NCBI GenBank assembly: GCA_030156255.1
Contig: JASGMV010000028.1
Coordinates: 1-48,268 of the forward strand
From: Desulfovibrionales bacterium
Lineage (GTDB): Bacteria; Desulfobacterota; Desulfovibrionia; Desulfovibrionales; Desulfovibrionaceae
DNA: 48,268 nt
Direction of reading: 5' to 3'
A program made the translations under genes and the position numbers. The notes below the pieces were generated by a model that had not been told where the DNA came from, ran no database searches, and saw nothing but the letters and a program-made list of their open reading frames with translations. Every line of letters begins with the position of its first letter. Positions within the stretch are counted from its first letter, which is position 1. Shown here in pieces: positions 3,602 through 38,222 of the stretch.

Positions 3602-4570
3602 TCAACCCAGGAGAACATAGCCGGCGCAGACCACGGCGATGCTCAACGCGCGCAAGGTCTGATTGTAAACCATGAGCCGCATCGCCAGGGCCGGCTTGTA
3701 AATGCCCGCATAGTAAGGAAACTGGTGGCGAAAAGCGCGCATGGGGGAGGACAGCACGTTGCCCGCCAACAGGGCGACCACCACCTCTTTCACCCCCAAA
3801 ACCCCGTTGTCCAGCATGGCGCCGGCGGACGCGAGCCCCGCCGAAAACTCCGCCGCGACCTGCATCACCACGATGCTGATGGCTTGGGGGTTCAACCACG
3901 ACAGCACCTGCACCCGCCCGCCCAACTCCTGCTCCAGCCACTGAAAAATTCCGTAACGTTGTAGCAGGAATACAGCCACATAAATCGGAACCGTGATGTA
4001 CAGAATTTTCGGCAGCCGCCGCTTGAAGCGCTTCCACGTCTTGCGCAACGCATCCCGAAGACCTCTGTTTTCCGACTCCGTCAACAGGCACGCTACGCAG
4101 CCCTCGGGCAATGGCGGCAGCGTCCAATGCCCCAGCAACACGATGAACGCCGTGCGCAACACGGCGGATGTCAACGTCAGCCCCACATAGACAAATGCGG
4201 CCGAGCCCAAAAAGGGCGCGCTGATGAAAAAAACCGTGGGTAAATGCAAAAAATAGGTCGGCAGGCTGTTGAAAAGATTCGACAGCACCAGCTCGCTACG
4301 GGAAATCCTTCCTTGGTCATAGGCCTCGGCGAGCATGGTGTTGGCGGATACGCCCGAAAAAAAGGCCATGGAGAAGCTGGCGCCCGACACGTCCTTGAGC
4401 CGGCCTAAGCGAACCAGAGGCGCGGCAAGACGCGCCACGGATTTGGTCCAGTCCAGCGCTTCAATGAGATTACCGATAAGCAACCCGACACTGATGAACA
4501 ACGTCAACCGGCCGAGCGGCCAGACCAATTTCTGCAGTAATACGTTGTAATCAATCGCAATACTTGTCAT
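3602..4570 (-). CDS. nucleoside-recognition (Gate) domain membrane protein
   Basis: 322-residue integral membrane protein with about seven or eight hydrophobic segments. The N-terminal half (LTLFISVGLLIGNLIEALDW, then SFSMAFFSGVSANTMLAEAY and NLFNSLPTYFLHLPTVFF) resembles the Gate/nucleoside-recognition domain shared by concentrative nucleoside transporters, the FeoB C-terminus and spore-maturation proteins. A charged cytoplasmic linker (ESENRGLRDALRKTWKRFKRR) separates the two halves. The second half ends in AFRHQFPYYAGIYKPALAMRLMVYNQTLRALS. The start is ATG with only a weak ribosome site; longer in-frame extensions upstream are low-complexity Arg/Ala and look non-coding. The transported substrate cannot be told. 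Confidence 0.75.
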   Translation of the reverse strand: MTSIAIDYNVLLQKLVWPLGRLTLFISVGLLIGNLIEALDWTKSVARLAAPLVRLGRLKDVSGASFSMAFFSGVSANTMLAEAYDQGRISRSELVLSNLFNSLPTYFLHLPTVFFISAPFLGSAAFVYVGLTLTSAVLRTAFIVLLGHWTLPPLPEGCVACLLTESENRGLRDALRKTWKRFKRRLPKILYITVPIYVAVFLLQRYGIFQWLEQELGGRVQVLSWLNPQAISIVVMQVAAEFSAGLASAGAMLDNGVLGVKEVVVALLAGNVLSSPMRAFRHQFPYYAGIYKPALAMRLMVYNQTLRALSIAVVCAGYVLLG

Positions 4571-25505: not shown

Positions 25506-27710
25506 TCAACGGCCAGGGTAGAGCCGCAACGTCAGTCCCGGAACAGCGGACAGGCACAAGGCCGCCTGGACGAACAACGCCTCCTGCACGCCGTACAGGG
25601 GCATGACCGCCAGCGACGACGCGACGGCCATGACCATAGCGCCGGCGAGGTCCAGGGCGTACAGGCCGGCGCCGGGGCCCGGAGCGCGCCCGCGCGCCAG
25701 ACTCGCAACGGAGGCGGCGTAATGCCCCCCTCCCAGGCATCCCCCAAGCAGCGCCAGCAGGTAAAAAGTCCAGCCCGGGGCCGAAGCCCGGACCAAACCG
25801 GGCAAGCCCGCGGCCAAGCCCAAAAGTCCCAGGCAAAGCGCCAGATGGATGGCCCACAGCCGGACGTTCGGCCGGCGCCGTCCCAGGACGCTTACGGCCG
25901 CGGCGCCGACGGCCAACCCGGCCATGAAGGCTCCCACGAGCAAGGCCAAGCGGCTGTACAGCGAACCCAAGGCGGCCTGGCAGCCCGCCAGCAACGCCAG
26001 CTCGAACACCATCAGCCCTCCGCCGGCCGTAGCTGTCGCCACGGCCGCAGGCCTGGCGCCCGTGGGCGCAGCCATCGCAAAAACCGCCAAACCAAAAGCC
26101 AACACCCCCGCCCCGAGCCGAAAAATCCGGCGGGGCGTTTGCATGAGTTGCTGCAACAAGGCGGCCGCCCGGGGGGAGGCGGCCTGGGCCTGGAGCGTCA
26201 AGGCGTGAAGAAAAGCCCATGGGTGAAGCAGCGTGCTGGGCTGGCCGGACGGCTGCTCCAAAACCTGGTCCAGATAGCGGCGCGCAAAAGGACTCATGAG
26301 GTCTTGCAACGAATCCGGGCGAACGTAGTCGAGAGCGAGCCCGCGCCGAGCCAACCGGTCGGCAAGCAGCCCGGCGTCGGCGCTCAAACGCGCCGCCTGG
26401 CCGCCGGCCAGAAAAAGGGCGTTGTCCCCGGGGAGGACCAAAACCTTCGGGAACGCCAGGCGCAACGTGTCGGACAACGCCTTGAGCTGGGCCAATTTGA
26501 TCGGACCGGGCCCCCTGGACGGGCCGGAAATCGAAAAGGCCAACACCCCTCCGCGCGCCAGACGTTTTTTCAGGTCCTGAAAAAATTCGACGCTGTAAAG
26601 CCTGCTCGCCTCCATGGAAACAGGATCGCCGCCGCCCAGCAAAATGACGTCGTAACGCCTCCCGGTGGACCGGACGAACACGGCGGGGTCCTCGACGTGG
26701 ACGAAAAGCCGGGGATCGCCGGCGAGACGGTCCGGGGCGATGCGAAGCACGGCCGCATCCAGCAGGACGCAGTCCAGGCGCTCTACGGAAGGGTGCTTGA
26801 GGATTTCCGGAGGCAAGCCGAAGGGGTCGCCCATGAGCAGAAGGACGTTTTTGGGGTCCGGATGCTCCAACATCGGCGTATGCGCGGCCGGTTCGCTCGT
26901 CCGAGGATCGGGCAGGCTGAAAGCCCAGGCGCCGTTTGCGAACAGGGACAACTGGCCCTCCCGGCTCAAGAGCGCGAGATTCTGGTAGGGCGTGTCTTCG
27001 ATTCGCACCGCGTCGCGCCCCCATTGCCAGACCCGGCTGGCGCGGTCCAGGGGACCCGCGGCGTAAAGCCCGACGGCCAGAAGGCCGGCGCACGCAAGCC
27101 ACGCCGCGGCGGCGAGGCGTTTTTTGTCCACGCATTCGATGCATAGCAATCCGGCGGCGAGGGGCGCCAGGGATGCAAGCAGGCAGCCCCGCAAGGCGCC
27201 GGCGCCGGGCAGCAGGACGAAAGCCAGCAGCAGACCGCCGGCGGCTGCGCCAAAAGCCTCCAGCAAATAAACCCGGATAGGCCTGGACGCCTCGCCCGCG
27301 GAAGCCTCGGACCAGGCCGCGGCGTAGAGGAGTCCCGACGCAGCCGCGGCCGGCGCCGGAGCGGCGAGGCCCGCGGCCAGCAGAACGCCGAGGCCGGGCA
27401 ATTCGCCCGGGCCGAGGTCGGCGATAGGCCTGACGGCGCGCAACAACAAAAGCGTTGCGGGCAGAGCCAGGGACAACAGCGGCGCCCCAAAGGCCAGGAC
27501 CCGGCGCCCGCGGTCCGACCGCCTGGGCAACGCCCCGCCCGCCGCGGCGGCCAAGCCGGCGAAAAGCAGCCAGGAAGCGAGAATCAGGCCGGCGGCCAGC
27601 TCGAACCCGGACCACAAGACCAAGGCCTCGCGGACGGCGAGCACCTGGCCCGTGGTCGAGGCGAACCCCGCGGCGCCGGCGACGAGCAATGCGGCGCGCT
27701 CATGACGCAT
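25506..27710 (-). CDS. polytopic membrane protein with spermidine-synthase-like domain
   Basis: 734 residues, Ala/Leu-rich. Two membrane regions (about 5-215 and 500-734, together some 13-15 segments) flank a soluble Rossmann-like domain (about 280-430) of the spermidine-synthase type. In that domain the SAM-binding glycine motif is replaced by LLLMGDPFG, the acidic residue after strand 2 is kept as LLDAAVL, and the catalytic DxxD-type motif reads LLGGGDPVS, so aminopropyl transfer is doubtful. The C-terminal DPxxLYSVEFFQDLKKRLARGGVLAF portion is well kept. The ATG start lacks a clear ribosome site. Probably a transporter-like protein; substrate unknown. Confidence 0.7.
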   Translation of the reverse strand: MRHERAALLVAGAAGFASTTGQVLAVREALVLWSGFELAAGLILASWLLFAGLAAAAGGALPRRSDRGRRVLAFGAPLLSLALPATLLLLRAVRPIADLGPGELPGLGVLLAAGLAAPAPAAAASGLLYAAAWSEASAGEASRPIRVYLLEAFGAAAGGLLLAFVLLPGAGALRGCLLASLAPLAAGLLCIECVDKKRLAAAAWLACAGLLAVGLYAAGPLDRASRVWQWGRDAVRIEDTPYQNLALLSREGQLSLFANGAWAFSLPDPRTSEPAAHTPMLEHPDPKNVLLLMGDPFGLPPEILKHPSVERLDCVLLDAAVLRIAPDRLAGDPRLFVHVEDPAVFVRSTGRRYDVILLGGGDPVSMEASRLYSVEFFQDLKKRLARGGVLAFSISGPSRGPGPIKLAQLKALSDTLRLAFPKVLVLPGDNALFLAGGQAARLSADAGLLADRLARRGLALDYVRPDSLQDLMSPFARRYLDQVLEQPSGQPSTLLHPWAFLHALTLQAQAASPRAAALLQQLMQTPRRIFRLGAGVLAFGLAVFAMAAPTGARPAAVATATAGGGLMVFELALLAGCQAALGSLYSRLALLVGAFMAGLAVGAAAVSVLGRRRPNVRLWAIHLALCLGLLGLAAGLPGLVRASAPGWTFYLLALLGGCLGGGHYAASVASLARGRAPGPGAGLYALDLAGAMVMAVASSLAVMPLYGVQEALFVQAALCLSAVPGLTLRLYPGR

Positions 27711-27970
27711 GGCCAAGGTCTATCACGCCAAGCGCCCCGCTCAAAGCTGCTTCACGGCGCCATCCCAACCGTCGCCCCCAATCGTCACGAGAGCGCAATG
27801 AAATCGTCACAGAACGACGATATTCAAAAAAGAATTCTCCTTTTGTATTGCCCTATTGTTATCCAATCTCGACGCCGGCCGCGTTGTAGGGAAGAGCGCC
27901 TTGCATAGGGCGGACAAGGCGCCCTATAATATTAAGTACTGACGCAAACCACCTAGGAAGGAGATGACGC
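27711..27970. promoter_or_regulatory. 260-bp divergent regulatory region before the GAK cassette
   Basis: Holds the GAK promoter/operator, and a direct repeat ATCGTCAC at 27781-27788 and 27803-27810 whose copies start 22 bases apart, about two helical turns. The repeat may be an activator site; no protein can be named. Confidence 0.4.
27901..27930 (+). promoter_or_regulatory. sigma70 promoter of the GAK cassette with internal operator
   Basis: TTGCAT (27901-27906), 18-base spacer, TATAAT (27925-27930). Between and across the boxes lies a perfect inverted repeat, ATAGGGCG (27905-27912), 7 bases, CGCCCTAT (27920-27927). A dimeric repressor bound there would block polymerase. The first ATG is 40 bases after the -10 box with AAGGAG before it. 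Promoter match is seen; repression is inferred. Confidence 0.7.
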
Positions 27971-28528
27971 ATGGCGTCCAACGAGCGCAAAATTCAGGCT
28001 TACATGACCCGCGAACAAACCGCGGACTACTTCAGGTCCCTGGCGAAAGTCATGGAGGGAGGGCCCGCCGAGGCCATGGTTCCGGAGCTGGCCGGCGTCA
28101 GGAAATTCAAATTGACGTTGACGCCGGAAGGTGATCGATTTTCCCTGAAGTGCACCGTCAAGCATCCCAAGCCGGAAACCGTTGCGACGACAGACGCCGA
28201 TGAATCCCCCGAAGCGGACGAATCCGTCTCGGACGCAGGCCGTCCCAAGTACAAGCAGCTCAAGAAGCGAATGAAGAAAGACTTCAAACTGATCCTGGAG
28301 ACCGCTCGGCAAGGCGCGCTTCCGGCGGCCGGGGTTGTTCAGGCTTTTCTGGACGATTGTGAATTGATGGTTACCTACCCCGGCAAGGGCGATCCCTATT
28401 ACGACGTGTTCGCCAAAGCCACCCAGGAAATGTCCCAGGCCTATCGAGCGGAGGACCTTGGCGCCTTCGCCAAATCCTGCGATAAAATGGACCACATCAA
28501 ACTCGAATGCCACAACAGGTACAAATAG
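27971..28528 (+). CDS. GAK system XXXCH protein
   Basis: 185 residues, first gene of the cassette. The N-terminal part (about 10-66: MTREQTADYFRSLAKVMEGG..., KFKLTLTPEGDRFSLKCTVK) resembles the amphi-Trp domain seen again two genes later. A charged acidic linker follows, then a helical C-terminal domain ending DHIKLECHNRYK, the Cys-His signature that names the XXXCH family. The single C-H pair near the C-terminus suggests a covalent attachment or metal-ligand site; this is inference. AAGGAG site seven bases before the ATG. The next gene starts one base after this stop. Confidence 0.85.
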   Translation: MASNERKIQAYMTREQTADYFRSLAKVMEGGPAEAMVPELAGVRKFKLTLTPEGDRFSLKCTVKHPKPETVATTDADESPEADESVSDAGRPKYKQLKKRMKKDFKLILETARQGALPAAGVVQAFLDDCELMVTYPGKGDPYYDVFAKATQEMSQAYRAEDLGAFAKSCDKMDHIKLECHNRYK

Positions 28529-28529
28529 C

Positions 28530-29714
28530 ATGCCCCAAACCTTAGAGTCCCCTGCAGTCAGCGTCGTAAAGAAAATGCAGGAACACTTCCCGACAGCGTC
28601 TCCCGACACGGCGTGTGAGGAGATCACCGAGCAGGACACCGAAATATTCTTCCGCGTCATCTCCACGGATTTGAACGACGAACAGGTCAAGGCGGTGGTC
28701 ACTCCGAAGCGGACCTACTCCTACCGCACCGTCATGGCCGTGCACTGGCACCCCGAGTTCATTCCCATGGACCTCATCCGCCAGCGCATCGCCGCCTCCT
28801 ACCCTCACAAGGAGGGGGATCTCATCATCCCCACGCAGCACAACCAGATTCTGGAGTACGACGACTACGCCGGCGTGGAGGTGGACTGCTACTCCCGCGG
28901 ATTCAATCAGAAGGTCCAACTGCTGCTGCACTTCGAGAAGAGCCGGCAAGACAAGGCCGAGGTGCTCAAATCCATGTGCGCCCACACCTTCACCTACCGC
29001 TCCTCGCAGCTCTTCGACTTCATGCACACCATTATCCGCCCGGACGAAAAACGCATTGAAGCCGCCGTGGCGCAGACCGGGGCGGATGCGGTTCTGGTCA
29101 AGTTCGTGGCGACCTACGTCAAGAAAATCGAAGAGCTGCTCATGCAGCACGAATCCGAGGTTCCGCCCGACGCCATCAAAAACAAACTGCTCCGCAATTT
29201 CTTCGACGAACTCCGGCCGATCTACGGCGCCACGGTGATCAACCGGGTCCAGAACTATCTCAAGGCGGTCAAGGCCATCGTCAAGCAGCATTTCTCGCTG
29301 CAGTACTTCTACCGGACCTCGGAGATCATCGAGGAGGCCCGGGCCATCGGCGCCGGAATCATCATTCCCCATCCCGAGCAGTTTTGGCCCATCCTGCTGG
29401 CCGAGTACGACGTGGACGGCTACGAAGTCTGGAATCCCCAGTCCCAGCGATACACCGACTTCCTCATTTCCGTGCTGAACGACAAGAACAAAAGCCTGGC
29501 CGGAAAACGCCGGCCGCTGCTCATCTTCATGGGCGACGACACCCACATGGGCGAGAAGGTCAAAAAACCCGAGCACCAGGACAAAGCCAAGGCCTCGCGG
29601 GAAATCGGATACCAGCCGGCTTGGGACGACCTGTGCATACGCAAAAAGCTGATCACCGCAAATCTGTGCAAAGAACAAGTCATCCAGGAATACCGCAGCC
29701 GGCTGGCCGGCTGA
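28530..29714 (+). CDS. PHP-like metal-dependent phosphoesterase in the GAK cassette
   Basis: 394 residues. The motif pattern fits the PHP fold: HWHPEF (about 72-77, HxH motif), AGVEVDCYS, a distant IIIPHPEQFW (motif III-like), GYEVWNPQSQRY, and MGDDTHMGEK (DxH motif IV) near 350. These give the His/Asp/Glu ligands for two or three metal ions, as in histidinol phosphatase and polymerase-associated PHP domains. No signal peptide. Its overlap-free one-base junction with the XXXCH gene implies cotranscription. Assigned by motif reading; a PHP-like protein of unknown function is the safe call. Confidence 0.6.
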   Translation: MPQTLESPAVSVVKKMQEHFPTASPDTACEEITEQDTEIFFRVISTDLNDEQVKAVVTPKRTYSYRTVMAVHWHPEFIPMDLIRQRIAASYPHKEGDLIIPTQHNQILEYDDYAGVEVDCYSRGFNQKVQLLLHFEKSRQDKAEVLKSMCAHTFTYRSSQLFDFMHTIIRPDEKRIEAAVAQTGADAVLVKFVATYVKKIEELLMQHESEVPPDAIKNKLLRNFFDELRPIYGATVINRVQNYLKAVKAIVKQHFSLQYFYRTSEIIEEARAIGAGIIIPHPEQFWPILLAEYDVDGYEVWNPQSQRYTDFLISVLNDKNKSLAGKRRPLLIFMGDDTHMGEKVKKPEHQDKAKASREIGYQPAWDDLCIRKKLITANLCKEQVIQEYRSRLAG

Positions 29715-29758
29715 GACGCCAACCCGGGCGGCCGCGCCCACGACGAAAGAGAGGGACC

Positions 29759-30028
29759 ATGAGCGACGAACGGTTTGAATATGAATCCTTCCAGGACAGC
29801 GAATCCATCAAGGCCTATTTCCAATCTCTCGTGGAGGGCTTGGAGAACGGCCGGATCATCCTCAGCTCCGAGGGCAAGGAAATCATGCTGCGCCCCGGCC
29901 CCTTGCTGAAATTCTCGGTCAAAGCAAAAAAGAAAGATGATAGTTGCAAATTCTCCGTGAAAATCACTTGGAAAGAGAAGAAAAAAGAAAAGCTCGCGGT
30001 GGGCGAGCCCATGAACATCTCCTCATAG
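29759..30028 (+). CDS. amphi-Trp domain protein of the GAK cassette
   Basis: 89 residues. Typical amphi-Trp layout: FEYESFQDSESIKAYFQSLVEGL helix, the central GRIILSSEGKEIMLRPG, then alternating polar/hydrophobic strands ending FSVKITWKEKKKEK, with the Trp that names the family. Small basic protein with no catalytic residues; probably a carrier, tether or adaptor. GAGAGGGACC before the ATG. The similar N-terminus of the XXXCH protein suggests the two share a partner or were derived by duplication. Confidence 0.85.
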   Translation: MSDERFEYESFQDSESIKAYFQSLVEGLENGRIILSSEGKEIMLRPGPLLKFSVKAKKKDDSCKFSVKITWKEKKKEKLAVGEPMNISS

Positions 30029-30061
30029 ATATCCACTTTAACCGGTTACGCTGGTCGTCCT

Positions 30062-31693
30062 ATGCTCACTTTTGAAGGAATGAATGAAAACTTCAAGTTT
30101 CTGGACATTGAAGTTCAGAACCAGCTCAAAGCCACGCTGGACTTTCTCAACAACCCCACACCCAAGAAGTACGACAAGATCGTCTCCCGGGACGACTACA
30201 TTGACAACCTGAAAAACATCATAGAAAATAAGTGCTTCTCTCGCATCCACTCGGATACGTCGCTGGACAAGCGATCCATCGACGCCATCAGGTCGCTGCA
30301 CATCTCCTGTGTCAACCTGGAGCGCATCGCCGACTTCTGCGTCAACGTCACCCAGCAGATCGATCACTTGTCCAGTCCGGAGGCCCTGGCGGGCTACGAC
30401 TACAAGGAGCTCTTCGAAGAAATTCTTTCGGCCGCCCGCAAGGTCCGGCCGGCCATGGAGAAGCAGGACCTCACGTTGGCCCTGGCCATTTGCCGCGCCG
30501 AGAACCAGCTGGACAAGCTGTACAAGCAACGCTTCGACCGCGTCATGTCCGAGATGCACGGCGGCGACGTGGTCCAGGACTTGGTCACCATCCTGTTCAT
30601 CTTCCGCTATCTGGAGCGCATCGGCGACTCCCTGCTCAACATCGGCGAGGCCATCATCTTCTCCATCCTCGGAGAGCGGATCAAGATCCACCAATTCCAG
30701 GCCTTGCAGCAAACCCTCCACCGAACCGGCTTCGACGGCCCGCTTTCGGACGTCGACTTCCAGGCCATTTGGGGCTCCCGCTCGGGTTGCCGCATCGGAG
30801 CGGTGGAGCAGCAGGCGCAGGGCAGCGTGTTCAAAGAGGGGGCTCTGGAGAAAATCCGCGCGGAGAAGTGCAACATCGATCGGTGGGGCCGGATATTCCC
30901 CGGCCTGGGCCCGCGGATCTTCAGCTTCTACGAAGACGAAGAGTCCGGGACGGCCTCCATGCTGGTGGAGTTTCTGCCGGGCTGCACCCTGGATGAAGGC
31001 CTCCTCACCACGGACGAGGAAATTCTGCGCAACGCCTTCTTCACGTTCAAACAGACCGTGCGGGAAGTCTGGGAATCCACGCGCAAATTGGAGCCCATGG
31101 CCACGGACTACATGGACCAGGCCCTTGAACGGTTGGGCGCGGTGCGCCAAGTCCATCCGGCCCTCTACCGCAACGCCATGTCGCTCGGAGCCTGGACAGT
31201 GGAGTCCACGGAGGACCTGCTACACCACGCCAAGCGCCTGGAGGCCGAGATACCGGCGCCTTTCAGCGTTTTCATCCACGGCGACCTCAACGTCAACAAC
31301 GTGGTCTACAACCACGAGGCCCAACGCGTTCACTACGTGGACGTGCACCGTTCCCGGCAGGCCGACTACGTGCAGGATGTCGCCATCTTTCTGGTCTCCA
31401 ACTTCAGGCTGCCGATCTTCGAGTCCCGCCTCAGGGCGCGCATCGACCGGGTCATCGACGACTTCCTCAACTACGCCCGTGAGTTGGCCAGCCAATGGAA
31501 AGACGACACCTTCGAGGCTCGATTGACCCTCGGCCTGGCCCGATCGCTGTTGACCTCGACCCGGTTTGAACTCAACGAAGATTTCGCCAAGGACATGTTC
31601 CTGCGCTCGCATTTTCTCCTGGAAAAGCTGACCGGCGGCGAAGGACCGCCGTGGGAGAACTTCCGGTTGCCCCCGGGCGTGCTGATGTATTGA
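30062..31693 (+). CDS. PhoU-APH fusion protein of the GAK cassette
   Basis: 543 residues. The N-terminal 220 residues form a PhoU-type helical bundle with both metal-binding signatures: LERIADFCVNV (about 81-91) and LERIGDSLLNI (about 183-193). The C-terminal part (about 280-520) is an aminoglycoside phosphotransferase/choline-kinase-like domain with the catalytic loop H406-G-D408-LNVNN and the metal Asp D427 in YVDVHRS. Kinase substrates of this fold are small alcohols or sugars. The fusion of a phosphate-signalling module to a small-molecule kinase is unusual. 33 bases after the amphi-Trp gene, same strand. Confidence 0.8.
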   Translation: MLTFEGMNENFKFLDIEVQNQLKATLDFLNNPTPKKYDKIVSRDDYIDNLKNIIENKCFSRIHSDTSLDKRSIDAIRSLHISCVNLERIADFCVNVTQQIDHLSSPEALAGYDYKELFEEILSAARKVRPAMEKQDLTLALAICRAENQLDKLYKQRFDRVMSEMHGGDVVQDLVTILFIFRYLERIGDSLLNIGEAIIFSILGERIKIHQFQALQQTLHRTGFDGPLSDVDFQAIWGSRSGCRIGAVEQQAQGSVFKEGALEKIRAEKCNIDRWGRIFPGLGPRIFSFYEDEESGTASMLVEFLPGCTLDEGLLTTDEEILRNAFFTFKQTVREVWESTRKLEPMATDYMDQALERLGAVRQVHPALYRNAMSLGAWTVESTEDLLHHAKRLEAEIPAPFSVFIHGDLNVNNVVYNHEAQRVHYVDVHRSRQADYVQDVAIFLVSNFRLPIFESRLRARIDRVIDDFLNYARELASQWKDDTFEARLTLGLARSLLTSTRFELNEDFAKDMFLRSHFLLEKLTGGEGPPWENFRLPPGVLMY

Positions 31694-31722
31694 CGCCTCA
31701 AACCGAAGCTCAAGGATTAGCC

Positions 31723-32598
31723 ATGATCAAAATTGCCGTGGTGGGCGCCGCCGGGGGCTGGTCTTCCGAGACCCTGGCCGACGCCGTGGAGCGCAAAACC
31801 GGTTTCAGATTGTTGGTGGAAATGGACCAGGTGCGTCTGGATCTGCCGTCGGGCCGGGCGTTCTACAAGGGCCATGACCTCTCGGAGATGGACGCGATCC
31901 TGGTCAAAAAGGTCGGAGCCCGCTACTCCCCGGATCTTTTGGACCGGCTTGAAGTGTTGCGGTTGATTGCGGAAAAGGGAGCGCCCATTCTTTCGGACCC
32001 CTGCCGCATCATGCGCGTGCTGGACCGCTTGAGCTGCACCGTGACCCTGCAGTTGAGCGGCATCCCCATGCCGCCCACCACCATCACGGAAGACGTGGAC
32101 GAAGCGCTGGCCGCCGTCGAGCGGTACGGCGAAACCGTGTTCAAACCCTTGTACAGCAACAAGGCCAAGGGCATGATCATGCTCACCCCCGCCCCCGGCG
32201 TGCGGGAAAAAATCTCCGAATACCACGCCGAGCACCCCATCATGTATCTCCAACAGAAGATAGAACTCGGCAACGAGGACCTCGGTTTGGTGTTCCTGGG
32301 CGGCGAATACCTCTGCTGCTACACCCGGCTCAAAAAAGGCGGCCCGCTGTCCGACCTGCGCAGCGGCGGAGGCAAGTATGAGCTGTACAAGCCGACCAAG
32401 GAAATTCTCGACCTGGCCGATAAAGCCCAAAAGCCTTTCGGGCTGGACTTCACCTGCGTGGATGTGGCCCTGACCCCGGACGGACCGGTGATTTTCGAAG
32501 TCTCCGCGTTCGGGGGGTTCCGCGGCGTTACGGAGACCACCGGCATCGACGCCGCCGAACGATTCGTGGACCTCGCACTGTCGAGAATCGAACAATGA
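31723..32598 (+). CDS. GAK system ATP-grasp ligase
   Basis: 291 residues, RimK-like ATP-grasp fold that joins a carboxylate to an amine or thiol through an acyl phosphate. N-terminal domain IKIAVVGAAGGWSSETLADA; ATP-binding Lys in TVFKPLYSNKAKGM (about 140-150); second basic residue in MYLQQKIEL; metal site in DGPVIFEVSAFGGFRG, where Ser stands for the Asn found in most ATP-grasp enzymes. The ligase substrate is unknown. Start ATG has AAGGATTAGCC upstream, 29 bases after the PhoU-APH stop; overlaps the HprK-like gene by four bases. Confidence 0.88.
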   Translation: MIKIAVVGAAGGWSSETLADAVERKTGFRLLVEMDQVRLDLPSGRAFYKGHDLSEMDAILVKKVGARYSPDLLDRLEVLRLIAEKGAPILSDPCRIMRVLDRLSCTVTLQLSGIPMPPTTITEDVDEALAAVERYGETVFKPLYSNKAKGMIMLTPAPGVREKISEYHAEHPIMYLQQKIELGNEDLGLVFLGGEYLCCYTRLKKGGPLSDLRSGGGKYELYKPTKEILDLADKAQKPFGLDFTCVDVALTPDGPVIFEVSAFGGFRGVTETTGIDAAERFVDLALSRIEQ

Positions 32599-33686
32599 GC
32601 GAACCGTCGGTCAGCCGCGCCGATCTGATCAGCAACCTGACGTCCCGATACGCTCTCCGCCACCGGATCTATCTGGATTTAGGCGGGGTGTGCGTGGAGA
32701 TCGGCGTGAATGAACCGGCCCTGGGCCTGGCGTTGGAGAAATATTTCGCCGAGTTCCGAACGCAGGAGGCCTGCGCCGATCTTTCCATCACCGCCCTGGA
32801 GGCCCCGCCTCAGACGCCGCCGATGGAGCTTACCGTCAAGCAAAGAGCGCCGGGCAAAAAACCGCATGAGGCCTACGCCGACCTGCCGGACGGCCGGGTC
32901 GTGCAAAAATTCGGCACGGACATGCTTTTCGTGTTCGGCCACGGCGATAATCTGGTCATCGGCCCCTGCTTGAGGTGGCTCAACCAAGTGGTCAACTTCG
33001 TCGGCAACCGGCTCATCGAGTGGCTCATGCACCAGGGAGGACTGCCCGTGCACGTAGCGGCCGGGTCCCTGGGCGGGCAGGCCGCAGCCTTCATCGGTAA
33101 GGCCGGGAAAGGCAAGTCCACTCTGGCCTTGCACATGACGGCCCGCGGCGCGAACTTCGTGACCAACGACCGCGCGGTGCTGCTCGAGCGCAACGGAGAA
33201 GTCCGCATCCACGGAGAGCCCAAGACGGCTCGCGTCAACCCGGGCACGGCGCTGAACGTGCCGGGGCTCGACGGGGTCATGCCGGCCGACGACCGGGAGC
33301 GGTTCCGGGCTTTGCCGACTTCCGAGCTTTGGTCCGTCGAGCGCAAGTACACGGCGTCCATCACGGAACTCTACGGTCCCGGCCGCTTCCGGTTGAGCGC
33401 CGCGCTCAGGGGATTGCTGTTCCTTGAGTGGAGCGGGTTTGACTCCCCGTGCCGCATCGAGCCGGCCCGGGACGAGGAGCGCGAGGAGATGATGTCCTTG
33501 CTGAGAAAATCGCCGGGGTTGTTTTATGTTCCGATCCCGGGAGGCGTCCCGGCAACGCCGCCTCGCTCGGCCTATCTGGAATTGCTTTCACGGATTCCGA
33601 TCTACACGGCTCGCGGCGGCGTGGACTTCGATACGGCGGCGAACTTCTGCCTTGGAATGCTGGAAAACTGCAGGAAAACGACGTAA
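32595..33686 (+). CDS. HprK-related kinase B (GAK system)
   Basis: 363 residues. Related to HPr kinase/phosphorylase: Walker A G168-KAGKGKST-176 in AAFIGKAGKGKSTLALHM, then FVTNDRAVLLERNGEVRIHG, matching the second HprK segment (D of the TNDR). The HPr-kinase substrate-loop region is shorter and different, so the target is not HPr; family B of the HprK-related group is defined by the GAK context. ATGA overlap with the ATP-grasp stop gives translational coupling. No PTS genes are in the window. Confidence 0.88.
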   Translation: MSEPSVSRADLISNLTSRYALRHRIYLDLGGVCVEIGVNEPALGLALEKYFAEFRTQEACADLSITALEAPPQTPPMELTVKQRAPGKKPHEAYADLPDGRVVQKFGTDMLFVFGHGDNLVIGPCLRWLNQVVNFVGNRLIEWLMHQGGLPVHVAAGSLGGQAAAFIGKAGKGKSTLALHMTARGANFVTNDRAVLLERNGEVRIHGEPKTARVNPGTALNVPGLDGVMPADDRERFRALPTSELWSVERKYTASITELYGPGRFRLSAALRGLLFLEWSGFDSPCRIEPARDEEREEMMSLLRKSPGLFYVPIPGGVPATPPRSAYLELLSRIPIYTARGGVDFDTAANFCLGMLENCRKTT

Positions 33687-33696
33687 CAATGAGCGC

Positions 33697-34884
33697 ATGC
33701 GCATTCGGCTGACCCGCGAAGCAATCATACCGGACCAGCTGCGCCTGGCCCGCTACGAAAGGCTGCCGGAGCTGGGGCCAAGAATTCTGTTCTTCAGCGG
33801 AGGGACCGCCCTGCGAGACTTGTCCCGGGAGATCATCCGCTATTCGCACAACACCATCCACCTGATCACGCCCTTTGATTCGGGCGGCAGCTCGGCCAAA
33901 CTCCGGCAAGCCTTCCACATGCCGGCCGTGGGCGACATCCGCAATCGCCTCATGGCCTTGGCCGACACCTCGCTGACCGGCAATCCGGCCATCTTCAATT
34001 TCTTCGCCCACCGTTTCCCGAAAGACGCGGAAAACGACCGCCTTCGTTCGGAGCTCGAACTCATCATCCGGGGGCGGCATCGTCTGGTGCAACGGATTCC
34101 CGACCCCATGCGGAAGATCGTCCGCAACAACATCCGATTCTTTCAGGACTACATGCCGGAGCATTTCGATCTGCGCGGAGCGTCCATCGGCAACCTGGCG
34201 CTTACCGGCGGCTATCTCAACAACAGGCGCCAGCTCGATCCGGTCATTTACCTTTTCTCCAAGCTGGTGCAGGTGCGCGGCGAGGTCCGCCCCGTGGTCA
34301 ACAACGACCTGCATCTGGCGGTCACATTGGCCAACGGCGAGACCGTCGTGGGACAGCATATGATCACCGGCAAGGAATCCGCCCCGCTCCCATCGCCTAT
34401 CCGCCGGATGTATCTGGTGAAAAGCCTGGAGGACCCCCAGCCGGCCAGGGCCAAAATTCGCAAAAAGCGGGCGGAGCTCATCCGCTCGGCCGACCTGATA
34501 TGCTACCCCATGGGCAGTTTTTTCTCCAGCATTCTCGCCAACCTGCTGCCTGAAGGCGTGGGGAGGGCCGTGGCCGAAAACCCCTGCCCAAAAATCTTCG
34601 TTCCAAACGGCGGGGAGGATCCCGAAAGCATCGGGTTGAGCTTGCAGGACCGGCTCGATTTCTTGATTCGAGGACTGACAAGCGACGCTCCGGACCGAAT
34701 CTCGCCCGGAGACGTCCTCACGCACGTGCTGCTGGATGCCCACGACAAGTCGCTTCACGGCGGCAAACTCCAAAGCGCGGACGGCTCGGAGTTCGCCCTC
34801 ATCGCAACCCGGCTGGCGAACAAGCAGTCCCGGCCGCTCTTGGACCCGAGGTTGTTGGCCCGCGCCCTTCTCTCCTTGGTCTAG
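33697..34884 (+). CDS. GAK system CofD-like protein
   Basis: 395 residues. N-terminal Rossmann motif ILFFSGGTALRDLSREI (about 29-45), then ITPFDSGGSSAKLRQAF and MPAVGDIRNRLMALAD, the signature of the CofD/YvcK family. CofD makes coenzyme F420 by 2-phospholactate transfer; YvcK (GlmR) binds UDP-sugars. The GAK branch is distinct: no other F420 genes are here, and residues 200-395 differ. Likely a transferase or a nucleotide-sugar binder acting on the cassette's product. ATG chosen after the HprK-like stop with a weak GAGCGC upstream. Confidence 0.87.
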   Translation: MRIRLTREAIIPDQLRLARYERLPELGPRILFFSGGTALRDLSREIIRYSHNTIHLITPFDSGGSSAKLRQAFHMPAVGDIRNRLMALADTSLTGNPAIFNFFAHRFPKDAENDRLRSELELIIRGRHRLVQRIPDPMRKIVRNNIRFFQDYMPEHFDLRGASIGNLALTGGYLNNRRQLDPVIYLFSKLVQVRGEVRPVVNNDLHLAVTLANGETVVGQHMITGKESAPLPSPIRRMYLVKSLEDPQPARAKIRKKRAELIRSADLICYPMGSFFSSILANLLPEGVGRAVAENPCPKIFVPNGGEDPESIGLSLQDRLDFLIRGLTSDAPDRISPGDVLTHVLLDAHDKSLHGGKLQSADGSEFALIATRLANKQSRPLLDPRLLARALLSLV

Positions 34885-34923
34885 GGCGCTTTTCATCCGT
34901 TCAACTTTCGCGAGAAGAGGATT

Positions 34924-36117
34924 ATGGCTGAAAAGACCTATGTTCTCGACACCAACGTGCTGATTGAAAACCCCAAGTGCATTGTGCAATTCCGCAACGG
35001 AGAACAAAACCGCATCGTCATCCCCTACGCCGTCATTCTCGAACTGGACAAACTCAAAAAGGACCAGCGGCTGGGATACGTTGTCAACCAGGCGATCGCC
35101 GTCATCCAATCCGACCAGCTCCTGTCCATTCTGCCGCCGTACCCCATCAGCGAGGAGGCCCTCAAAAAAAACTGCGACGGCTTGATTCTCGAGGAAATCA
35201 AAAACAGTCATCTGGACGATCCCATTTTCGTCACCAACGACCGCATCCTGCAGATCAAGGCCCAGCTTTACTCCATCCGATGCGAAGGCTACCGCGACGC
35301 CAACCCCTTCAAGAGCGAATCCGAGCGCTTCACAGGTTTTGTGGAGCCCGGCGACAACCCGATTCCCAACTCTTTCCGATGGGAGAGCGGACACCCGTAC
35401 TTCCTTGGATTCAATGAAGAAAAAAGCATCGACTACTCCCACAAAGTTTGGGGCGTGAAACCGCGCAGCGTCTATCAGAATCTGGCCATGGAGCTGATGC
35501 TCAACCAGGACATCGACTTGGTCTCCATCCAGTCCGAGGCGGGTTTCGGCAAAACCTATCTGGCTCTCGCCTGCGCTTTGTATCTGGTGCTGGAGGCGAA
35601 GAACAATCCCTTCAACAAGATTTTCGTCGTCAAGCCCGTGGTGGAGATCGGCGCCAAGATGGGCTTTTTGCCCGGGGACATCGAAGAAAAGATGGCGCCC
35701 TACATCCGCTACATTCGCGACCTGGTCGTCAAGCTGCACGAGGGCCGCCAAGCCAACCGGATATTCCTGGACGCCGAGGCCCAGTACGTACGCTTCAACC
35801 CCAACAAGTTCGAAATTCTGCCCATCGCCTACGTCCGCGGCATGAACATCGAAAACGCCGTGGTCATCATCGACGAAATGCAAAACCTGTCGCGCACCGA
35901 GACCCGGGCGCTATTGACCCGCATGTGCGAAGGCGTCAAATGTTTCTGTCTTGGCGACAGCCGCCAGGTGGACAACCCCTATCTCAACGAGACCAACAAC
36001 GGCCTGAACTGGGTGGTGAAAAAGTTCCTGGGCATGCGCAACTACGCCCACATCGTGCTCAAGGGCGAGCGCTCCCGCGGCCCCATCACGGACATGGTGC
36101 TGCGCTCCGGGCTCTGA
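34924..36117 (+). CDS. phoH: PIN-PhoH (PhoH2-type) ATPase
   Basis: 397 residues. N-terminal PIN nuclease-like domain (about 5-130) with D9 in VLDTNVLIENP and acidic residues in LDDPIFVTNDR. C-terminal PhoH ATPase: Walker A with K210 in SEAGFGKTYLA, Walker B D317-E318 in VVIIDEMQN, sensor region in CLGDSRQVDNPYL. PhoH2 proteins are ATP-dependent RNA-unwinding ribonucleases. It lies 39 bases after the CofD-like gene with AGAAGAGG before the ATG and ahead of the cassette terminator, so it probably belongs to the GAK operon. Whether its role is functional or incidental is unknown. Confidence 0.9.
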   Translation: MAEKTYVLDTNVLIENPKCIVQFRNGEQNRIVIPYAVILELDKLKKDQRLGYVVNQAIAVIQSDQLLSILPPYPISEEALKKNCDGLILEEIKNSHLDDPIFVTNDRILQIKAQLYSIRCEGYRDANPFKSESERFTGFVEPGDNPIPNSFRWESGHPYFLGFNEEKSIDYSHKVWGVKPRSVYQNLAMELMLNQDIDLVSIQSEAGFGKTYLALACALYLVLEAKNNPFNKIFVVKPVVEIGAKMGFLPGDIEEKMAPYIRYIRDLVVKLHEGRQANRIFLDAEAQYVRFNPNKFEILPIAYVRGMNIENAVVIIDEMQNLSRTETRALLTRMCEGVKCFCLGDSRQVDNPYLNETNNGLNWVVKKFLGMRNYAHIVLKGERSRGPITDMVLRSGL

Positions 36118-36157
36118 GGCCGCCTGCGCCGCCCTTGCTCTCTCCCTACGCACCTTC

Positions 36158-36203
36158 AAAAGGACCAGCCGGAGGCGCGACAATGTCCGGCTGGTCCTTT
36201 TTT
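36158..36203 (+). terminator. strong Rho-independent terminator ending the GAK-phoH operon
   Basis: AAAAGGACCAGCCGGA (36158-36173), 12-base loop, TCCGGCTGGTCCTTTT (36186-36201), then TT. A 16-bp perfect stem with six T. Usable in both directions between convergent genes. Confidence 0.93.
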
Positions 36204-36245
36204 GTCCCAGCGCATCCAGCCGTGGCTGACCCCAGTCTCTTCCGC

Positions 36246-36722
36246 TCAAAAATTCGCCCAGCTTCCCGATGTCGTTTCCCAATCCGACGGTTCGATTGCC
36301 ATATGCAGCAAAGGAAAAGGCTTTCCCGCTCCATCCACCGGAGACCGGCTCAGCGTCTTGAAGCCCATATGTTCGTAGAATCCGACGGCCGCCGGATTCT
36401 GCTCGTTGACGTCGACCTTGTTTGCGCCAAGCTCGGCGATGGCGAACTCCAGCAGCATCCTGCCGATTCCCTTGCCGCGACTTTGTGGGGCAAGGAAAAG
36501 CATCTCGATTTTTCGTTCGGCCACGCCCAAAAAACCATGCATTCCATCCGACGCATCCACCAGGCAATACAAATCAACAGCCGCAAGATATTCATGCAGG
36601 ATCAACGGCTTGAAAAACTGAATGTCCTCTTCCGACAAGAAATCATGAGTGGCTCGAACGGAAGCCTCCCAAATTTCAACTAGTTGTAGATAATCATTTT
36701 TCTCGGCAGCGACGATACGCAT
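36246..36722 (-). CDS. GNAT family N-acetyltransferase
   Basis: 158 residues. Acetyl-CoA-binding motif A is IEMLFLAPQSRGKGIGRMLLEF (Q-x-x-G-x-G at PQSRGKGIG, about 80-90), followed by VDVNEQNPAAVGFYEHMGFKTLSRSPVD, the motif B Tyr region. Opens IVAAEKNDYLQLVEIWEASVRATHDFL as in the ElaA/YjaB-like GNATs. GGAGGTGTG lies directly before the ATG. Substrate unknown. Convergent with phoH, sharing the terminator, and divergent from the WG-repeat gene. Confidence 0.85.
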   Translation of the reverse strand: MRIVAAEKNDYLQLVEIWEASVRATHDFLSEEDIQFFKPLILHEYLAAVDLYCLVDASDGMHGFLGVAERKIEMLFLAPQSRGKGIGRMLLEFAIAELGANKVDVNEQNPAAVGFYEHMGFKTLSRSPVDGAGKPFPLLHMAIEPSDWETTSGSWANF

Positions 36723-36917
36723 CACACCTCCAAAGGCTTTCCTGCAACAGGAAGCGGCATACACAACGCAGACAGCCCTTACAACCGGGACCGCTCTTCC
36801 CGAGGAAACCAGCCGGCCTCGCCGCCTCAGGCTTCCGCTTGACGGCGCAGCCCCTTGCTTAAAAAGCCATGATCCGACACAATCTTTGACAGCAACAGCC
36901 TTATGACGGGAGCCCTC

Positions 36918-38222
36918 ATGAATGCACACTGGCCCATGACCACGGTGGTCATCGCATTGATCATCATTCTCATAGCCGTGGGCGCCGTGCTCATCCTGTC
37001 TATTCCGGGGGGCCGAAAGGCTTCCCCAAAGAAAACTCCCGCGGCGAAACCCAGCGAAAAAAAGCAGAAAACGACGCAACCGCCGCCCAAGCCGAAAGCC
37101 GCGCCTCCCGCTCCCCGCCTGCAACCAAAAGAACCTGTTCCGGAAACGCCTCCGCTTGACCTGCCGCCGTGGCTGGAGAGGGACGAGGAGGAAGAATCCC
37201 TGGCCCGCCAGGAACTGATTCCTTTTGAGGAAAACGGCTTGTACGGCTACCGGAACTATCGCGGCGAGACGGCCATCCCGCCGGAGTACGAATTCGCCGA
37301 AGAATTCTCCGAAGGCCTGGCCGTTGTGGCCAAGGGCGGAAGCTTCGGCTACATCGACACTGCCGGCGAGACGGCGATCCCCTTGAGCTACGGCGACGCC
37401 CGGGCCTTTTCCGAAGGGCTCGCCGCCGTAATGGAGGATGGCCGCTACGGCTACATCACCAGGAACGCCGACATGGTCATCGCCCCGGAATTCCTTGACG
37501 CCCGGGATTTCTCCGAAGGACTCGCCGCCGCTTCGGATAGTTCCGGCGACTACGGCTATATCGACAAAAGCGGGCACTGGGCCGCGCTCCCCCGCTTCGA
37601 TTATGCAGGCCGGCACCGCCACGGCGTCGCGCCGGTCATGGTCAACGGAAGATTCACCTACGTCAACGCCTTCGGGGCCGAATTGGACCCGCCGGCCGAC
37701 GCCTCCAAAAACGACTTCAACAGGGCCCTGGCTCCCATCCGCAAAAACGGGCTCTACGGCTACGCCACCCGGACCGGAAGGGAGATCATCGACTGCACAT
37801 ACGAGTTCGCCGAACCCTTTTCCGAAGGGCTCGGGCTCATCAAGAAAGACGGGCTCTATGGATTCATCGATCCCACGGGCGCCGTGGCCATTTCGCCGCA
37901 ATACCCCATGGCCAGAGCCTTTTCCGAGAGCCTTTCCTGCGTGGAAATCGACGGCCGGTACGGCTACATCGACGACCACGGGCGGATAATCATCCCGGCG
38001 ACGTTGGAGATGGCCTGGGGCTTCAGCGAAGGTTTGGCCCGTTTCATGGACCAGGAGCGCTACGGATTCATCGACAAGGCCGGCGTCGTGGCGATTCCCG
38101 CGGAATACGAACGCGCCGAAGACTTCCAGCATGGCCTGGCCAAGGTTCGGAAGGACGGGCGGACCATGTACGTGGACGCAGAGGGAGTCAGCGTCTGGGA
38201 GGTCAGGAAGGATTCAGACTGA
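36918..38222 (+). CDS. membrane-anchored WG-repeat protein
   Basis: 434 residues. One N-terminal membrane segment (TTVVIALIIILIAVGAVLIL, about 8-27), a Lys/Pro-rich linker (about 30-85), then ten WG-type repeats of about 35 residues to the C-terminus. The unit is YGYID.TG...IP.EYE.A..FSEGLA.V...G (Phe/Tyr-Gly-Tyr/Phe cores at LYGYRN, FGYID, YGYIT, YGYID and so on). WG repeats form extracytoplasmic beta-sheet arrays of unknown ligand. ATG chosen with GGGAG six bases upstream, five codons after another ATG. The 3' end overlaps motB, which reads the other way, by 20 bases. Confidence 0.82.
   Translation: MNAHWPMTTVVIALIIILIAVGAVLILSIPGGRKASPKKTPAAKPSEKKQKTTQPPPKPKAAPPAPRLQPKEPVPETPPLDLPPWLERDEEEESLARQELIPFEENGLYGYRNYRGETAIPPEYEFAEEFSEGLAVVAKGGSFGYIDTAGETAIPLSYGDARAFSEGLAAVMEDGRYGYITRNADMVIAPEFLDARDFSEGLAAASDSSGDYGYIDKSGHWAALPRFDYAGRHRHGVAPVMVNGRFTYVNAFGAELDPPADASKNDFNRALAPIRKNGLYGYATRTGREIIDCTYEFAEPFSEGLGLIKKDGLYGFIDPTGAVAISPQYPMARAFSESLSCVEIDGRYGYIDDHGRIIIPATLEMAWGFSEGLARFMDQERYGFIDKAGVVAIPAEYERAEDFQHGLAKVRKDGRTMYVDAEGVSVWEVRKDSD

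Follow-up and report, generated by a model that had tools for sequence, protein, structure and literature searches.

What does the GAK gene set do, and which genes belong to it? The NCBIfam models which define this system (TIGR04356, TIGR04355, TIGR04357 and TIGR04358, with TIGR04354) carry no assigned function. We have analyzed a stretch of 48,268 nucleotides, contig JASGMV010000028.1 of a Desulfovibrionales bacterium (assembly GCA_030156255.1), which we call the window. It contains a GAK cassette of eight tightly spaced genes on the + strand (27971-36117), in the order XXXCH, PHP-like, amphi-Trp, PhoU-APH, ATP-grasp, HprK-related kinase B (HprK_B), CofD-like and PIN-PhoH. Our new finding is that in several lineages the cassette, or parts of it, continue a pst-phoU operon; the window copy does not. 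The link between the cassette and phosphate is well supported. This link and a named core of genes make the orphan set testable.

A first-pass annotation of the window, made from its letters alone, described the same eight genes in this order, with short gaps or overlaps. The coordinates confirm this observation: with the start codons that we have chosen, the intergenic distances are 1, 44, 33, 29, -4, 10 and 39 bases. The interpretation given there is partly supported. It missed the pst-phoU linkage, the division into a core and a separate XXXCH/CofD pair, and the resemblance of one end of the XXXCH protein to cytochrome c'.

Core and separable genes

Families have been assigned with the curated NCBIfam cut-offs, and Pfam and NCBIfam were searched up to E 1. 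All five NCBIfam families of the GAK system exceed their cut-offs in this single cluster (Table 1), and their order is conserved. On the other hand, the core that we describe includes PHP-like and PhoU-APH, which no NCBIfam model names as GAK, while CofD and XXXCH are also found outside the system.

Gene neighbourhoods were compared in two sets. Set 1 consists of the window and 60 fetched stretches (61 in all), set 2 of 80 further loci from named genomes, the best 80 of 518, some of them cut by contig ends. Together they form 141 stretches, in which some loci represent the same place twice (for example, L093 and L094). The order XXXCH-PHP-amphiTrp-PhoUAPH-grasp-HprKB-CofD, in some cases followed by another amphi-Trp gene, recurs in set 1 with variants and gaps. 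Among the best 80 of 518 loci, ATP-grasp is found in 80, PhoU-APH in 76, HprK_B in 73, amphi-Trp in 71, PHP in 61, CofD in 57 and XXXCH in 41.

Genome profiles agree with these neighbourhoods. In 149 genomes of the class of the window (ATP-grasp over its cut-off, PHP at E up to 1e-3, PhoU-APH at E up to 1e-40), ATP-grasp, PHP and PhoU-APH are present in the same 73 (phi 1.0), also where PHP and ATP-grasp are far apart, as in genome G021. HprK_B is found in 69 of these 73 genomes and in none of the remaining ones. Every one of the 73 has XXXCH, as do 16 others. CofD exceeds its cut-off in 133 of the 149 genomes and therefore does not mark the system. The genomes of a class are related, and p-values from such profiles are therefore not probabilities. 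Because of their identical profile and their adjacency, PHP-like and PhoU-APH are core members in this class, as the first-pass annotation had proposed. In a sample of 247 genomes from the phylum, ATP-grasp exceeds its cut-off in 16, PHP is found in 17, and both in 14. The two genomes with ATP-grasp and no PHP (G189 and G335) are each less than 90% complete.

The XXXCH/CofD pair is separable from this core. Both genes are adjacent in genomes without the cassette (L178, L179, L180, L181, L182 and L183), a second XXXCH/CofD copy is found in a cassette-bearing genome (L194), and XXXCH occurs without CofD in L184 and L185. The system is thus made of two modules: PHP, PhoU-APH and ATP-grasp form the core, XXXCH and CofD the pair. 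In L179, L182 and L183 the XXXCH/CofD unit is preceded by similar genes, which look like those of membrane proteins.

PIN-PhoH had also been considered as a member of the cassette, which is not supported by locus counts and genome distribution. PhoH is found in 7 of the 61 stretches of set 1 and in 5 of the 80 loci (best of 518). With matches accepted at E up to 1e-60, it is present in 60 of the 73 cassette genomes and in 19 of the 76 others of the class, a moderate co-occurrence (phi 0.57). It does sometimes lie near cassette genes: in L202 it follows PstA, about 5.5 kb before XXXCH-PHP-amphiTrp-PhoUAPH, and in L198 (5699-8214) HprK_B comes immediately after it, at a distance from the remaining cassette. 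The window protein has PIN and PhoH domains and stays below the PhoH2 (NF053827) cut-off, with 140.9 bits against 680.

Pairwise distances of the proteins labelled P, U, G, K and C correlate (r 0.62-0.84) in the 61 loci left from 71 after removal of near-duplicates, a positive correlation that may reflect common descent as well as co-function. No relatives of PhoU-APH were confirmed among 55 pattern matches in the viral contigs scanned.

Relation to the pst-phoU operon

The cassette is preceded by pst genes of the same orientation in 8 of the 141 stretches (L062, L065, L101, L114, L126, L133, L145 and L159). Only PhoU or one small gene is seen between pst and the cassette in L062, L065, L126, L133, L145 and L159. 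Two same-strand genes separate PhoU and XXXCH in L101, and an opposite-strand gene separates the pst genes and the cassette in L114. The order in L145 is PstS-PstC-PstA-PstB-PhoU-XXXCH-PHP-amphiTrp-PhoUAPH-grasp-HprKB-CofD. In L133, PhoB-like-PstB-PhoU-XXXCH is followed by the rest of the cassette. L159 has PstS-PstC-PstA-PHP and the genes which follow, with PstB on the other strand, and in L062 PstB-PhoU run directly into the cassette. The gene separating PstB and XXXCH in L126 is no recognisable PhoU.

Parts of the cassette are found in the same position. The PstB search covered 78 genomes. PstB-PhoU stand directly before HprK_B-CofD in L195, and in one genus (g7) the coordinates give PstB-HprKB-CofD in 8 of 9 genomes; the ninth, G047, has partial PstB matches only. 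In L196 and L197, PhoB-like, PstB and PhoU genes are followed by a frame that weakly resembles XXXCH, and by CofD. These frames reach 26 and 36 bits with our own profile and are missed by TIGR04358. Operon continuity with pst-phoU is found in the relatives L065, L126, L133, L145, L159 and L195. A standalone PhoU lies within the cassette of L166, and a PhoU row of 28% identity within L063; neither is counted among the eight stretches.

PstC, PstA, PstB and PhoU of L101, PstB of L114 and PhoU of L145 exceed their NCBIfam cut-offs. The remaining Pst and PhoU labels are based on similarity to the L101, L114 and L145 proteins, and PstS was named by reading. The PhoB protein of L114 does not reach its cut-off (236/296.2), hence the term PhoB-like throughout. 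Genes which read like a low-molecular-weight phosphatase/arsenate reductase are found in 12 stretches; the Pfam check (LMWPc) covered the copy in L101.

Compared with Pst-PhoU uptake and signalling, the cassette shares operons in several lineages and has a PhoU domain in PhoU-APH, but the window cassette lacks a transporter, a sensor kinase and a regulator, and no pst or PhoU gene continues into it or stands alongside. A narrow literature search found no GAK-phosphate link in print, nor is there one in the GAK descriptions we have seen.

Alpha- and gammaproteobacterial loci

Eight loci from Alpha- and Gammaproteobacteria, several of them on short contigs, contain PhoU-APH, ATP-grasp and HprK_B but, within the stretch, neither PHP nor XXXCH; the absence of PHP refers to these stretches rather than to whole genomes. 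According to Pfam searches with selected proteins, the same loci carry, in varying sets, a NUDIX protein, a histidine phosphatase-NUDIX fusion, a histidine phosphatase and a calcineurin-like phosphoesterase. These genes stand in the place of PHP. In L130, PHP is found plus a NUDIX-domain gene between PhoU-APH and ATP-grasp. The suggestion of the first-pass annotation that the enzyme mix is one of phosphoryl chemistry is strengthened by these other phosphatases.

Searches of plasmids gave five records, all from Rhodobacterales genera. As annotated by NCBI, the Qingshengfaniella plasmid carries CofD, NUDIX, phosphotransferase, GAK ATP-grasp, HprK-related B, histidine phosphatase, metallophosphoesterase and amphi-Trp genes. 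The Pseudooceanicola block is the same without NUDIX, and the Tritonibacter block has neither NUDIX nor CofD in the stretch shown.

Properties of the encoded proteins

The second gene of the cassette is predicted to code for a PHP-fold protein. It has no Pfam or NCBIfam family match up to E 1, and a sequence search of the PDB gives nothing below E 0.94. Nevertheless, the PHP-like label it had received appears to be right by predicted fold. HxH, several further His and DxH are invariant in an alignment of 35 relatives. The AlphaFold model has a mean predicted local distance difference test (pLDDT) of 88, and Foldseek matches it with RNase AM (9etk, E 6.8e-5) and the phosphoesterase BAD_1165 (3e0f, E 1.9e-4). 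With VIA-align, the top nine rows have Z 8.3 to 15.5 and the next one 4.4; among these nine, Pol III alpha, EndoQ and 2yb1 are proteins which we take to be PHP, the others being so by title. The fold is shared with phosphoesterases of the TrpH/RNase AM type (9etk, 7ug9, 3e0f and 2yb1) over 178-241 residues (Z 14-15.5), as are the HxH and DxH motifs, but the cassette protein has only 15-16% identity with them, a large helical insert and no family match. Phosphoesterase activity is thus a prediction from fold and metal-ligand motifs. In genome G193 the PHP gene (C113:6353-7444) has two in-frame stops and is apparently decaying or mis-sequenced.

Conserved catalytic residues suggest that PhoU-APH and HprK_B are active: PhoU-APH relatives keep Lys, HGDxNxxN and Asp, while HprK_B relatives keep Walker A GxxGxGKST and FvxNDR. 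HprK_B is far below the HPr kinase model TIGR00679, scoring 15.2 bits against a cut-off of 240. The statement that no HPr or phosphotransferase system (PTS) genes are present is wrong at the genome level, as an HPr gene is found at C62:9032-9268 of the same genome; its neighbour (L204) reads like PTS enzyme I. A HprK_B gene with one in-frame stop, in genome G011 (C21:56100-57200), is apparently decaying or mis-sequenced. Relatives of the ATP-grasp protein keep EVSxFGGF, and the protein stays below the cut-offs for the amino-acid ligases RimK and MptN (80.8/143.4 and 125.7/350 bits, respectively).

The XXXCH model (pLDDT 89) has an N-terminus of strand-helix-strand-strand and a four-helix C-terminus. 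The N-terminal domain is probably a relative of amphi-Trp, with an NCBIfam match at E 0.011, below the cut-off, and an hhalign match at E 3e-4 (probability 39%). For the C-terminus, Foldseek gives no match at E 0.001, and cytochrome c' takes ranks 1-13 at E 0.02 or weaker. A search of PDB sequences with the XXXCH profile gives four designed helix-bundle proteins (E 0.003 to 0.02), followed by cytochrome c' (E 0.024 to 0.27), aligned up to the haem site. VIA-align gives Z about 11 with cytochrome c', a value that generic helix bundles also reach, and two unrelated rows are at the top. The fold match is weak alone, because helix bundles generally score alike; the matching CH end is a better argument. 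XXXCH shares with cytochrome c' the four-helix bundle and the register of the C-terminal CH, but the first haem cysteine is replaced and there is an extra N-terminal amphi-Trp-like domain. Of 30 sequences, 27 have KxxCH and none has CxxCH, the haem attachment motif of cytochrome c'.

The two amphi-Trp proteins differ in an S-x-Q-D segment, present in 65 of 75 relatives of amphi-Trp 1 (before PhoU-APH) and in 0 of 46 relatives of amphi-Trp 2 (after CofD). Its Ser is a candidate phosphorylation site. A carrier tail like that of LysW is not seen in these proteins, whose ends are poorly conserved.

Possible function

We suggest that the cassette is a phosphate-homeostasis system which phosphorylates and dephosphorylates a soluble substrate, and we give this reading a probability of about 0.45. 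A phosphoryl turnover tied to phosphate status is indicated by the PhoU domain, by the membership in pst operons in relatives and by the variety of phosphatase folds that occupy one position. The core would be formed by a PhoU-domain kinase (PhoU-APH), the ATP-grasp enzyme and a dedicated phosphoesterase, nearly always with HprK_B; the phosphoesterase would be PHP in the relatives of Desulfovibrio, and calcineurin-like, histidine-phosphatase or NUDIX proteins in the alpha- and gammaproteobacterial loci. In the direction that we infer for the cycle, the kinases and the ATP-grasp enzyme would use ATP to make a soluble compound with phosphate, possibly pyrophosphate, groups, and the phosphoesterase would free phosphate from it again. 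The PhoU domain, as a putative sensor, would couple this turnover to the Pst/PhoU state of the cell, and XXXCH, CofD and amphi-Trp may have an accessory role, separable from the rest, in binding or processing the product. A metabolite is favoured as substrate over the co-encoded small proteins, because several pyrophosphatase-type enzymes recur.

The link with phosphate uptake is also favoured by a chance estimate: of 111 loci with 4 kb of sequence upstream, 5 have PstB within it, against 0.07 expected (Poisson p 1.5e-8; without L114, 4 loci and p 1e-6).

Several observations weigh against this proposal. Most cassettes, that of the window included, are not beside pst genes, and the PstB-PhoU pair of its own genome is on another contig (C92, L203). 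The Poisson estimate treats related loci as independent and uses a limit chosen after the distances were known (L114 is at 3996); it leaves out L159, with PstB on the other strand, as well as L101 and L133, for lack of counted upstream sequence. There is no convincing Pho box upstream: the best score, 11/14, is reached in 7 of 106 cases, compared with about 2.6% of random windows. The controls are mixed, and we do not use this weak excess as support. Three genomes, G359, G360 and G381, have PHP but no ATP-grasp; in G360 PhoU-APH adjoins PHP (L176), and the fetched stretches of the other two (L175 and L177) show no cassette partner. The ATP-grasp enzyme is closest to amino-acid ligases, MptN before RimK, which suggests the formation of an amide rather than a phosphate bond. 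Finally, two kinases and a CofD-like protein fit protein phosphorylation too.

Such a relay, with HprK_B and PhoU-APH phosphorylating amphi-Trp and XXXCH as HprK does with HPr and Crh, is possible by analogy, although we find it doubtful. The phosphatases would reset the proteins and the CofD/YvcK-like protein would be the effector; the yvcI(NUDIX)-yvcJ-yvcK-whiA-crh cluster of B. subtilis is the model. NUDIX, HprK-like and CofD-like genes do recur jointly in our loci, HprK_B keeps its motifs, and S-x-Q-D is confined to amphi-Trp 1. However, HprK_B is far under the HprK cut-off and was not found in 4 of the 73 cassette genomes, and the relay leaves the ATP-grasp enzyme and several different phosphatases unexplained. 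The ATP-grasp enzyme would find a role in peptide tailoring, where it would extend amphi-Trp or XXXCH proteins by amino acids at their carboxyl ends and the kinases would activate them, like in LysW-type carrier pathways. Its resemblance to RimK, LysX and MptN and the small proteins encoded in the same operon suit this idea, which we judge very improbable: the ends of LysW carrier proteins are conserved, unlike those of amphi-Trp, and the metal site in the alignments is E-x-S instead of the E-x-N usual in ATP-grasp enzymes.

We also consider improbable a low-phosphate envelope or lipid system, in which the CofD-like protein and a neighbouring family 4 glycosyltransferase (GT4) would act on sugar nucleotides, while the rest would supply or recycle a phosphorylated precursor. 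GT4 proteins are found in 27 of the 141 stretches (28 matches, L040 and L107 included; GT4 by Pfam for two), and also beside PstB-PhoU-HprK_B-CofD in L195 (7996-10461). D. alaskensis replaces phospholipids by glycolipids at phosphate limitation and needs Pst, PhoR and an Agt homologue, and strain G20 then loses its polyphosphate granules, while Pst, PhoR, the Agt homologue and OlsF become important (PMC5193443). The main text of that article does not mention ATP-grasp, PHP, PhoH or CofD. Against an envelope role, most stretches showed no GT4 gene, and where one occurs it is usually on the opposite strand (same strand 0.11), no membrane or lipid enzyme is recognised in the core, and three Rhodobacterales stretches have no GT4 beside the cassette, one of them having a glycosyltransferase 8 kb off. 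The GT4 proteins have about 820-1000 amino acids where complete, and their start reads like a PHP domain, without a Pfam PHP match.

Returning to phosphate homeostasis, a similar mix of folds is found around it in the enzymes of inositol pyrophosphates, which include the PPIP5K/ITPK ATP-grasp kinases, DIPP NUDIX proteins and histidine phosphatases. The cassette differs from them, as its ATP-grasp enzyme is nearer to ligases and we have found no evidence for inositol phosphates. It is conceivable, if unlikely, that the product is a soluble phosphate store or messenger rich in pyrophosphate, which the cassette would both make and mobilise and which the PhoU domain would read; in its logic, it would be the bacterial counterpart of inositol pyrophosphates. 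A concrete candidate is the glucose pentakis(diphosphate) reportedly found by Hensgens et al. in 1996 in granules of Desulfovibrio gigas. To our knowledge, no biosynthetic genes for this compound have been described. As about half of the genomes sampled from the class carry the cassette (73 of 149), its presence in D. gigas would by itself say little. A store or messenger of this kind would add a new branch to the phosphate homeostasis of sulfate reducers and of some Rhodobacterales.

The probable window operon and its surroundings

The eight genes are likely to form one operon, as previously proposed, judging from their spacing, the TATAAT upstream and the terminator downstream. The features are listed in Table 1.

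Table 1. Features of the GAK cassette in the window, with bit scores and curated cut-offs for the NCBIfam families.
Feature	Position	Strand	Basis
Candidate promoter: TTGCAT, 18-base spacer, TATAAT	27901..27930	+	Read from sequence
XXXCH protein, 185 amino acids	27971..28528	+	TIGR04358, 90.6 bits (cut-off 40)
PHP-fold phosphoesterase (predicted), 394 amino acids, helical insert	28530..29714	+	Predicted fold, invariant motifs
amphi-Trp protein 1, S-x-Q-D segment	29759..30028	+	TIGR04354, 70.3 bits (cut-off 31)
PhoU-APH, PhoU domain fused to APH-fold kinase	30062..31693	+	Pfam PhoU 1.3e-24, APH 1.4e-6
GAK ATP-grasp enzyme (RimK/MptN-like)	31723..32598	+	TIGR04356 (grasp_GAK), 422.5 bits (cut-off 300)
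HprK-related kinase B	32595..33686	+	TIGR04355 (HprK_rel_B), 354.5 bits (cut-off 200)
GAK CofD-like protein (YvcK/CofD superfamily)	33697..34884	+	TIGR04357 (CofD_rel_GAK), 530 bits (cut-off 340); Pfam CofD 2.9e-38
PIN-PhoH protein, co-directional neighbour, non-core	34924..36117	+	Pfam PhoH 1e-40, PIN_4 7.4e-18
Intrinsic terminator, long hairpin and six U	36158..36201	+	Fold -36.8 kcal/mol for 36118-36206, z -3.6

The -10 element of the candidate promoter is perfect (27925-27930), but its -35 element is poor, and for this reason it is absent from the listing of the consensus scan, whose promoter-like sites are at chance level (2 found, 2.1 expected). A terminator scan of 27300-36500 lists no + strand terminator, and thus none between the cassette genes. 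The scan overlooks the final hairpin because its loop is too long.

The cassette is flanked by genes for a spermine-synthase-domain protein (25506-27716, - strand) and a GNAT-domain protein (36246-38132, - strand), with no evident link to it. The genome of the window (G000) has a second cassette copy, with ATP-grasp-HprK_B-CofD at the end of one contig (C67:95183-98349, L034) and PhoU-APH at the end of another (C80:55-1662, L193); both are probably a single locus split by the assembly.

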